From Armatimonadota bacterium (GTDB lineage: Bacteria > Sysuimicrobiota > Sysuimicrobiia > Sysuimicrobiales > Sysuimicrobiaceae), in contig JAVKGW010000003.1 in the NCBI GenBank assembly GCA_031460175.1, positions 62,001 through 126,000 on the forward strand: 64,000 nucleotides of DNA, given 5' to 3'. Position numbers and translations under genes: made by a program. The notes under the pieces were generated by a model, which saw only the letters and a list, made by a program, of their open reading frames with translations, did not search any database and was not told the DNA's origin. Shown in pieces: positions 1,284 through 8,387 of the stretch. Numbering within the stretch: the first letter of the stretch is position 1; each line of letters opens with the position of its first letter.

Positions 1284-1724
1284 TCACTCCTCCACCACGA
1301 ACTCCCCGTACATGGTGACGTCGTGCCCCGGTACCGTGCACACGTACCGGTACCGGCCCGGCCGGTCCGCTACGAACCGGATCTCCTCCCGCTCCCCGGG
1401 TCCCAGGACCCGGGTCTTCGCGCCGGGGAAGGCGGGCTCCAGATACGGGGCTCGCTCCCGCGGGCCCACCACCCACAGATCGTGCTGGAGGCGATCCCGG
1501 TTCTCCAGCACGAGCCGCACCGGCCGTCCCGTCCGGACCCGGAGGGTGGGGCCGGGGACGCGGCCGCCGAACCGCATCCCCACATCCGCGGTGACCACGA
1601 GGAGCTGTTCTCCGCCTGCCGACCGGCCCCCGGTCCGGCAGCCTACGAAGAAGGCCGCGAGGAGGAGGACCGTGAGGACGTTCCGGATCAGCCGTACGCG
1701 GCCCGCAGGATCCCGTACTCCCAA
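1284..1724 (-). CDS. Cupredoxin-domain lipoprotein (small blue copper protein)
   Basis: This protein of about 146 residues has a hydrophobic export segment ending in AAFFVGC, a lipobox-like site that would anchor it outside the membrane. The rest is one cupredoxin domain. Candidate type-1 copper ligands are His in QHDLW, Cys and His in YVCTVPGH, and a following Met in VTMYG. No ATG lies near the expected start; the TTG at 1724 is preferred because GGAGG lies 10 bases upstream. That start overlaps the end of the flavoprotein gene by about 37 bases. In a sulfur operon it is plausibly the electron acceptor for the neighbouring flavoprotein; this is inference. Confidence 0.75.
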   Translation of the reverse strand: MGVRDPAGRVRLIRNVLTVLLLAAFFVGCRTGGRSAGGEQLLVVTADVGMRFGGRVPGPTLRVRTGRPVRLVLENRDRLQHDLWVVGPRERAPYLEPAFPGAKTRVLGPGEREEIRFVADRPGRYRYVCTVPGHDVTMYGEFVVEE

Positions 1725-4215: not shown

Positions 4216-5384
4216 ATGGCACCTGCGGACGTGGTCATCATCGGCGGCGGGTGCATCGGCGCCAGCGTTGCCTTCCACCTGGCACGGGGCGCGAAGCACA
4301 CAGTGCTTCTCCTCGAACGGGACCGGGTGGGCACGGGTCCCACCGGGCGCACCGTGGGGATCATCCGGCTGCACTACTCCCACGAGCCCCTCATCCGGCT
4401 TGCCCTGCGCAGCCTTGATGCGTTCGCTCGCTTCGAGGCCCTCACGGGCCGCAGCGCGGACTTCACCCGCACGGGCTTCCTGCTGCTGGTGCCGGAGGCG
4501 GAGTGGGAAGGGTTAGTGGCCAACGTGGCGCTCCAGCGCCGCCTGGGGGTTCAGGTGGAGATCCTCACGGCCGAAGAGGTGGTGCGGCTGGACCCCCGGC
4601 TGAACCCGGAGGGGATCGCGGGTGGGGCGTACGAGCCGGAGAGTGGGTTCGCGGACGGGTACGCCACCGCCACGGCGTTCGCCGCCGCGGCCCGGGAGCA
4701 CGGCGCACAGATCGAGGAGGGAGTTCGGGCGGAGGCCATCGAGGTGCGAGGCGGGAGGGTCGCCCGCGTGCGCACCACGCGGGGGTCGTGGACACGCGGA
4801 CGGTTCTCGTGGCCGCGGGCGCGTGGAGCACGGCGCTCCTGCGGCCCCTCGGCGTGGATCTTCCCATCGTGGCGGCCCGGGAGCAGGTGGTGCACCTCGC
4901 GCCGCCGGAGGCCTTTGGATCCCTGGGATTCGTGGTGGAGGACCTCGCCCTGGGCTTTTACGCGCGGCCGGAGACGGGGGGTACGGCCCTCGTGGGCGTG
5001 CTGGAGGAAGAGCCGGAGGAGATCGTGGACCCGGACGGTTTTACCACAAGCGTGGACCTAGACTTCGTGGAGCGGGTGGCGCGCCTGTGGAGCGCGCGAT
5101 TCCCGGGGGCCCAGGAGGCGCAGTTCCGCGGTGGGTACGCCAGCCTCTACGACGTCACCCCGGACTGGCAGCCCATCTTGGGTCCCGTGGAGGGGATTGA
5201 AGGGCTTTACCTGGCCGCGGGTTTCAGCGGGCACGGGTTCAAGCTGAGCCCGGCCCTGGGCGAGGAGCTGAGTCGGTGGATGGTGGGCGAGGAGCCCACG
5301 GTGGACTTGAGGATGTTCTCCCTCCGACGATTCCAGGAGGGAAGTCTTTTGCGGGGGCGGCACCGGAGGGGGCTTCTCGGATAA
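4216..5384 (+). CDS. FAD-dependent DAO-family oxidoreductase, frameshifted
   Basis: The reading frame from 4216 encodes an FAD-binding start (DVVIIGGGCIGASVAFHLA) and the first half of a DAO-type amine/amino-acid oxidase (sarcosine oxidase beta or glycine oxidase relatives). At the G-run 4781-4785 the homology passes to another frame, which continues DTRTVLVAAGAWSTALL and ends with the C-terminal FAD motif LYLAAGFSGHGFKLSP. One extra G in the run would restore a single protein of about 390 residues. This is either a real mutation, slippage or a sequencing indel. The substrate is unknown. It stands alone, diverging from the sulfur operon, with GGAGG before the ATG. Confidence 0.72.
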
Positions 5385-6689: not shown

Positions 6690-8387
6690 TCAGCGGCCGA
6701 TGGGCCAGGAGCGGGAGAGGTTCCAGTAGTTGCCCAAGTACATGAGGACGAAGAAGGCCGCGAAGAGCAGGCACAGGACGAAGGTGCCGGGGACCGCGGG
6801 CACCTCCTTCGTCGGGTGTCCCGGATTGCCGGCCGGTACGGGAAGCGCGTACTCCCGCCGCAGCTCCTCGTCCGTCAGGCGCGAGCCGGCCAGCACCGTG
6901 GCCACCACCAGGACGACGAACAGAGCGCCGCCGAGAAGGGCTAGGACTCCTCCGACACCTGCCACGGTCAGCAGGGCGTAGACCTCCGCCGGCCACTGGA
7001 AGGCCAGCGGCAGACCCCGGAAGCGGAAGATGTCGGGCTGTTTGCGCGGCAGCCCGTACCGGACGCCCAGCTGCAGGAAGGCCAGCACCAGCAGGCCCAC
7101 CCCGATTCCAAACAGCCACGGCTGCCAGCGGGCCCAGCGTTCGGCCACCACACGGCGCCGGAAGACGAGGGGCAGGACGTACCACGTGACCCCCATGAAG
7201 GCGAGGGTGGTGCCGGCCACCACGACCCCGTGGAAGTGCCCCATGATGGCTGTGGTGTTGTGCCACTTCAAGTTCAGCTGCTCGGTCCCGGCGATCACGC
7301 CCGTGGTTCCTCCCAGGAAACCGAACAGGGCTACCGACAGGACCAGGCTCGTGAACGCGGGGTTGTGCCACGGGCCGCGCACCAGCCACTCAAACAGGCC
7401 CCGGGTGTACCCCCGCAGCCGCTGGCCCACCTCCACGCTTCCGGGCACCGCGAAGGCGTGGATCATGCTCCCCAGTACCGCCAGGTGCATGAGGTAGCCC
7501 GTGTTGACCCACTTCCAGCCCACGGACAGGGCTCCGCTCGGCTCGGTCTGCAGGTGGTGGGCGCTTCCCAGGTTGATGGCCACCAGGTACAGGACGAAGG
7601 CGGCCCGGGAAACCTTCTCGCTGGGGGTCCGCCCGCCCACGGTCAGCTGGGCCAGCAGGTACCACACGGTGATGGTGGCCGCCAGGTTGATCTGCTGGGA
7701 GGGGTGCCCGAACCCCCAGTACGCCAGCTTCCACAGGAAGGGGTCGAGGTTCGGCAGGACATCCACGGACCACAGGAACGCGGGGACGTACACCAGGGCC
7801 CCCACCAGGAGCGTGGCCACGGCCAGCACCGCGGCCACGAAGGCGCCGAAGACCACCAGGGGAAGCGGCCCCTCGTGCGTGCGCTCCCGATACGCCCTGT
7901 GGACCGTGGCGAAGAAGTGCCCGACCCCCACCAGGGCTCCCACCGCGAACAGGATGGTCCCCAGGTAGAAGTCGGGCGTTCCCCGCAGGGGCGGGTAGGG
8001 CTGGAAGGACAGGTGGTTGAGGGGGTTCGTGAGGATCGCGCGGTTCACCGTCAACGCGCCCAGGACCATGAGGCCGAACGCCAGCCACGCGGCCGCGGGA
8101 CTCGCGGGCCGGGTGTTCAGCATGATGCTGCCCGCGAAGTGCAGCAGGGCGATCTCGAAGAAGATGATCCAGAAGATCAGCATGTTCCACGCGTGGAGGG
8201 CCAGGGACTGGTAGAAGGTCTCGGGCGGGAAGGCGCCCATCCAGCGGGTGAACAGGACCACCACGGCGGCGATCCCGCCCAGCAACAGCGCCACCACCGC
8301 GGCCACCGCGTTCGCCTTCACCAGGTCCTCCGCGGCCCGGTGGACCCGGAACCCGGTCACGGGGCAGGTGCGGGCTTCCCCGATCAT
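6690..8387 (-). CDS. Heme-copper oxidase subunit I, B-family-like, possible NO reductase
   Basis: This 565-residue polytopic protein carries the heme and copper ligands of subunit I: His65, His228 (WGFGHPSQQ), His277-His278 (GSAHHLQTEP), and His384/His386 in HNTTAIMGHFHG, a pattern like ba3-type oxidases. The residue four after the helix VI histidine, normally the cross-linked Tyr of oxygen-reducing enzymes, is Gln232. Loss of this tyrosine is a hallmark of NO-reducing members of the superfamily, so NO reduction is a serious alternative to oxygen reduction. A CuA-containing subunit II precedes it four bases upstream, so electrons likely come from a soluble or anchored donor. Confidence 0.85.
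   Translation of the reverse strand: MIGEARTCPVTGFRVHRAAEDLVKANAVAAVVALLLGGIAAVVVLFTRWMGAFPPETFYQSLALHAWNMLIFWIIFFEIALLHFAGSIMLNTRPASPAAAWLAFGLMVLGALTVNRAILTNPLNHLSFQPYPPLRGTPDFYLGTILFAVGALVGVGHFFATVHRAYRERTHEGPLPLVVFGAFVAAVLAVATLLVGALVYVPAFLWSVDVLPNLDPFLWKLAYWGFGHPSQQINLAATITVWYLLAQLTVGGRTPSEKVSRAAFVLYLVAINLGSAHHLQTEPSGALSVGWKWVNTGYLMHLAVLGSMIHAFAVPGSVEVGQRLRGYTRGLFEWLVRGPWHNPAFTSLVLSVALFGFLGGTTGVIAGTEQLNLKWHNTTAIMGHFHGVVVAGTTLAFMGVTWYVLPLVFRRRVVAERWARWQPWLFGIGVGLLVLAFLQLGVRYGLPRKQPDIFRFRGLPLAFQWPAEVYALLTVAGVGGVLALLGGALFVVLVVATVLAGSRLTDEELRREYALPVPAGNPGHPTKEVPAVPGTFVLCLLFAAFFVLMYLGNYWNLSRSWPIGR

Follow-up and report, generated by a model that had tools for sequence, protein, structure and literature searches.

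Which reaction can a heme-copper subunit I support when the tyrosine of its active site is replaced by glutamine? The question is raised by a gene within a stretch of 64,000 nucleotides from a member of the Sysuimicrobiota, referred to here as the window. An earlier note on this DNA had left the choice between an uncharacterised NO reductase and a new oxidase variant with the tyrosine placed elsewhere. Based on the comparisons described below, we consider it highly probable that the protein is an NO reductase of the already known eNOR family. The family itself is therefore not the novelty of the locus; the little-noticed CuB-less paralogue encoded next to it is the part most worth following. 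The coordinates are collected in Table 1.

Table 1. Genes and active-site codons of the locus, in window positions
Feature	Position	Strand	Evidence
eNOR subunit I, catalytic heme-copper subunit, 565 aa	6690..8387	-	Pfam COX1 E 3e-55; all-Gln eNOR clade 100/100; AF2
Codon of Gln232, replaces active-site tyrosine (ba3 Tyr237)	7692..7694	-	Gln in 101/101 relatives covering the site
Codon of His228, helix VI CuB ligand	7704..7706	-	matches ba3 His233, invariant
Codons of His277-His278, helix VII CuB pair	7554..7559	-	match ba3 His282-His283, invariant
Codon of His65, low-spin haem ligand	8193..8195	-	matches ba3 His72, invariant
Codons of His384 (high-spin haem) and His386 (low-spin haem), GHFH motif	7230..7238	-	match ba3 His384, His386
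eNOR subunit II, CuA cupredoxin, 174 aa, one N-terminal transmembrane helix	8392..8916	-	CuA ligands conserved
CuB-less paralogue of eNOR subunit I, 431 aa	5387..6682	-	conserved residues, AF2 fold, profile match to eNOR
Cupredoxin, 133 aa, possible electron carrier	1287..1685	-	Pfam Copper-bind, Cupredoxin_1

Active site and family of the subunit I protein

Helix VI of subunit I reads WGFGHPSQQINLAA, in which the residue at His228+4 is Gln232, as the earlier note had recognised. The alignments place Gln232 on Tyr237 of the Thermus ba3 oxidase and are free of gaps around the site. The haem and CuB histidines are all present, as the note had stated: His65, His228, His277, His278, His384 and His386 match the ba3 ligands, with the last two in the segment HNTTAIMGHFHG (residues 376-387). 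The ORF check found no comparable protein on the plus strand at 6690-8387. None of the 101 relatives covering the site departs from Gln231, Gln232 or Asn234, and the motif HxxQQ(I/V)N is invariant among them; as these relatives come from many phyla, Gln232 is neither a chance replacement nor a sequencing error. The Tyr237 column of the alignment holds Gln in 87 eNOR-like sequences and Tyr in 8 B-type sequences. An AF2 model of subunit I, built from 37 sequences, has a pLDDT of 87, and its closest folds in the PDB are B-type oxidases, for example 1xme and the 7deg dimer. The window protein and the Thermus ba3 oxidase thus share the fold, the haem and CuB ligands, a CuA subunit II and part of the K-channel, while they differ in the replacement of Tyr237 by Gln232, Val236 by Gln231, Trp239 by Asn234, Thr312 by His310, and Tyr244 by Val/Ile. 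The cross-linked tyrosine at His+4 expected of a B-type O2 reductase is accordingly missing.

The gene for subunit II lies directly upstream of the subunit I gene, in agreement with the CuA linkage noted earlier, and the two adjoin in nearly all eNOR loci listed. Its CuA ligands His119, Cys155, Cys159 and His163 are identical in 88 of 88 homologues. Glu15 is kept in 87 of the 88 and aligns with Glu15 at the K-channel entrance of ba3 subunit II, the best match in the PDB.

A maximum-likelihood tree of 53 proteins separates six heme-copper groups cleanly; the groups were named from their motifs, the Asn-type being called sNOR-like for its Asn, and the tree was built without the biochemically characterised Rhodothermus eNOR protein (Murali et al. 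2024). The all-Gln group (23 rows), which includes the window protein, forms a single clade (100/100). It is sister to the Tyr-bearing B-type O2 reductases (100/97) and lies outside them, so the phylogenetic placement that the earlier note had called for puts the window protein apart from proven oxygen reductases. The A-type, C-type, qNOR and Asn-type groups are all separate from this clade. Of the two NO reductase families that the note had suggested, eNOR is therefore upheld by the all-Gln clade and the published signature, and sNOR is not: sNOR is likewise proposed as a tyrosine-less, CuA-type NO reductase from relatives of the B family, but it carries Asn in the tyrosine position and its Asn-type sequences form a clade of their own. 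Membership in qNOR/cNOR was also rejected. These enzymes share NO reduction within the heme-copper superfamily, but they have an FeB site with Glu and lack CuA, and tree and profiles set them apart; the eNOR profile scores 1e-68 against B-type sequences and nil against qNOR (E 0.05), with no similarity beyond the fold.

The eNOR family is reportedly treated by Hemp and Gennis (2008) and Murali et al. (2024). It is defined by Gln at the tyrosine site together with a cupredoxin (CuA-type) subunit II encoded upstream (PMC8756737). It is related to the B family and is cited among four biochemically characterised NO reductase families (PMC11388526), which removes the word uncharacterised from the earlier proposal. 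The Gln site, the haem and CuB histidines, the upstream CuA subunit II and the monophyly with Gln-type proteins are all those of eNOR, and nothing in subunits I and II distinguishes them from known members. The NO reductase activity of the window protein would be that ascribed to the family in the literature, which we take from secondary sources. The adjacent CuB-less paralogue is not mentioned in the eNOR literature examined.

A profile scan of public genomes recovered at least 80 eNOR loci, and the matches listed include Thermus, Chloroflexota, Gemmatimonadota, Pseudomonadota, Verrucomicrobiota, Bacteroidota, Acidobacteriota and others. The closest named proteins among these matches are the CbcBA pairs of Thermus, plasmid- or chromosome-borne near nirK and nsrRST, which are 56-58% identical and group with the window protein at 100/100 in the tree. 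In contrast to His386 of the window protein, Thermus has Lys386. Lys at residue 386 was observed in six relatives, and the resulting GHFK motif, in which the low-spin haem ligand is replaced, occurs in Thermus and Bacteroidota eNORs (L012, L048, L049, L108, L112, L122, L128). As the tree separates these two groups, a double origin of the replacement is probable. Ligation of a haem by a His/Lys pair would be unusual.

Predicted reaction and competing functions

In the proposed reaction, electrons from a donor that may be a periplasmic cytochrome c or cupredoxin would enter at CuA and pass through the low-spin haem (His65/His386) to the site formed by the high-spin haem (His384) with CuB (His228/277/278). 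There, two NO would be coupled to N2O and water (2 NO + 2 H+ + 2 e-). The fourth electron that a tyrosine supplies for O-O cleavage is not required when NO is reduced, which would leave the tyrosine site free to be Gln232. The protons would probably be drawn from the cytoplasm via a remodelled B-type K-channel, in which Glu15 of subunit II is followed by Ser256, His310, Ser307 and Tyr243 of subunit I; with cytoplasmic proton entry the reaction would be electrogenic. In the alignment, Tyr248, Ser309 and Ser261 of the ba3 K-channel are retained in eNOR as Tyr243, Ser307 and Ser256, Thr312 is replaced by the invariant His310, Tyr244 by Val/Ile, and the window protein has Ala at ba3 Thr315. A cytoplasmic route rebuilt from the ba3 K-channel is plausible from these residues, and a single channel is also what has been predicted for eNOR in the literature.

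The B-type fold and the sister relationship to B-type O2 reductases would also suit an O2 reductase with its catalytic tyrosine at another site, comparable to the cbb3 oxidases. Tyr298 in helix VIII would be the foremost candidate; it aligns with ba3 position 301 and, like Tyr267, is invariant in eNOR and missing from B-type oxidases. However, Tyr267 lies 10 residues from His277 in the same helix, and the helix VII position that bears the tyrosine in cbb3 enzymes (H277-6) is Ile or Leu in every relative, so that a relocated tyrosine of the C-type was rejected on the alignment. The invariance of Gln232 is what a residue with its own function would show; the members of the family accompany denitrification genes, and two A-type oxidases with an intact tyrosine are already encoded by the host. 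With the clade also outside the O2-reductase cluster, the oxidase variant put forward in the earlier note is not favoured, and we regard it as quite unlikely.

The proposed NO dismutases are related to qNOR. Because the window protein has neither the usual active-site residues of oxidases nor those of qNOR, it could be asked whether it dismutates NO (2 NO -> N2 + O2), the reaction proposed for unusual relatives of qNOR in NC10 bacteria. The profile scores given above, which tie eNOR to the B-type and not to qNOR, and a CuA subunit II delivering electrons for which a dismutase would have no use, make this reading barely credible.

An NO reductase of the eNOR family accords with what is reported for organisms that carry these genes. 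The genome of Verruconatronum alginivorum, a cultured Verrucomicrobium, was reported to encode NirK and eNOR as the route from nitrite to N2O, with eNOR as the sole NO reductase reported; the organism grows with conversion of nitrite to N2O near a 2:1 stoichiometry and with doubled yield (PMC13274419). The eNOR of Ardenticatena shares an operon with NirK (PMC4653789). In Thermus, the NO-sensing nsrRST operon has the CbcBA pair on its upstream side, and NO was suggested by the authors as the substrate of the pair (PMC7694296). The same layout was seen in the Thermus locus that we examined. The NxrAB-like proteins, the Thermus-type NirK-like protein, qNOR and NosZ of the window genome also speak for an NO reductase, while the Ser of the NirK-like protein at the catalytic Asp98 position speaks against it. 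Contrary evidence comes as well from Thermus brockianus YIM 77927, which was reported to be without nor genes; N2O was undetected at 96 h and NO was inferred to be the end product (PMC9270275). Its genome nevertheless encodes an eNOR-clade pair (L048, 56% identical) with Lys at residue 386, and eNOR has therefore been overlooked or is silent in this strain.

The latter observation also bears on whether the enzyme serves respiration at all or binds NO for detoxification or sensing at low oxygen. The lack of detectable N2O in T. brockianus, the Rrf2-family regulator and DUF542 among the Thermus neighbours, and a second NO reductase (qNOR) in the window genome are in line with such a role, and with qNOR present eNOR need not be the main NO reductase. 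Conservation of CuA and of the K-channel entrance Glu15, on the other hand, suggests coupling to the respiratory chain, and the growth yield of Verruconatronum is doubled with nitrite. We find a detoxifying or sensing role rather improbable, though far less so than the oxidase.

The eNOR genes of relatives are annotated as 'cbb3-type' and 'b(o/a)3-type' oxidases. Such names hide the capacity for NO reduction and N2O formation, an example being the Thermus genomes reported to be without nor genes, and the identification of the window gene as eNOR would correct an annotation trap.

A paralogue without the copper site

The gene of the CuB-less paralogue begins 7 bp past the end of the subunit I gene. 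Its product is not recognised by Pfam, but it retains His54 and His316 for the low-spin haem, His314 for the high-spin haem, and Arg375-Lys376. Moreover, His184-x-x-Gln187 matches His228 and the eNOR-specific Gln231 of subunit I. The helix VII CuB pair corresponding to His277-His278 is missing. Profile comparison ranks eNOR first (E 6.5e-38), followed by B-type (1e-20), A (3e-7), Asn-type (4e-6) and C (8e-5), with no match to qNOR. The AF2 model, from 22 sequences, has a pLDDT of 92, and among solved structures it fits ba3 best (TM 0.75-0.79). A match to influenza matrix protein in the PDB search (E 0.09) was dismissed as chance.

Of the 53 named loci whose downstream flank is complete, 28 have a homologue of the paralogue no more than about 8 kb from eNOR. 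The linked homologues belong to Pseudomonadota, Verrucomicrobiota and others, and in a Nitrospirae MAG the gene is directly downstream. Across three genome sets the paralogue was found in 21 of the 29 genomes with strong eNOR matches versus 1 of the 131 without, counts that are no independent sample because the sets share ancestry; one further fragment (G099) is ambiguous. The paralogue is missing from most eNOR genomes of one phylum and usually unlinked in another, which points to an accessory component. It was not found in the Thermus genome searched, in contrast to the window, and a plasmid search with it gave no match. A literature search, incomplete in coverage, returned nothing specific on a CuB-less subunit linked to eNOR.

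The paralogue is a duplicated subunit I that has lost CuB. It would most likely act, with no catalytic site of its own, as an accessory subunit that carries haem b and serves in electron entry or assembly. More tentatively, part of the eNOR family may form a three-subunit complex, in which the duplicated subunit minus CuB would be a partner with haem only, such as a bis-histidine haem wire or a quinol-side electron entry; we would put this clearly below an even chance. If true, one heme-copper complex would hold an active and an inactive copy of one fold. A heme-copper catalytic subunit minus its copper site, with the haem sites kept, is in any case conserved across several phyla, and a possible third subunit of eNOR is directly testable.

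Clusters of Pseudomonadota that hold eNOR and the paralogue also encode haem-O synthase, SCO and a cytochrome b-ferredoxin-FlpD fusion. Besides these, the cluster at L107:5932-16600 contains genes for CtaA, subunits II and I, the CuB-less paralogue, a CbiM-like protein and an unknown protein. In a genome of the same genus as the window, eNOR subunit I and the paralogue match only piecewise (G001:C3:184007-186111; L015, L028, L041, L046), as if through a frameshift or misassembly.

Genomic surroundings of the operon

The strand of the eNOR operon carries, farther downstream, genes for TusA, an unknown secreted protein, an FCSD-type flavoprotein, the cupredoxin of Table 1 and a sulphur transporter. 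About 7 kb downstream of the operon, just outside the low end of the window, are NxrA- and NxrB-like proteins (G000:C3:57306-61968; L214:2307-6968, minus strand), which give near full-length matches to the Kuenenia nitrite oxidoreductase (949 and 366 bits). NarG-type matches are situated at a similar distance from eNOR in the relatives G001 and G005. The window genome also encodes NosZ, and no NirS was found in it. A periplasmic-type NXR and sulphide oxidation have been described for the phylum Sysuimicrobiota, whose gene pattern that of the window genome resembles (PMC11604079).

A Thermus-type NirK-like protein is encoded elsewhere in the genome (L192; G000:C4:207936-208724). This protein with three cupredoxin domains is common to the window genome and Thermus (L128:5860-7212), and it has Ser at the position of the classical NirK catalytic Asp98. 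Within the window, a gene for an FAD-dependent oxidoreductase on the plus strand (4216-5384) appears to be split over the overlapping frames 4216-5061 and 4503-5384, by a frameshift or an assembly error. A further COX1-family protein of 462 aa (G000:C2:313456-314694; L005) is without recognisable haem or copper His motifs, and low-scoring COX1 matches of similar length are present in related genomes.
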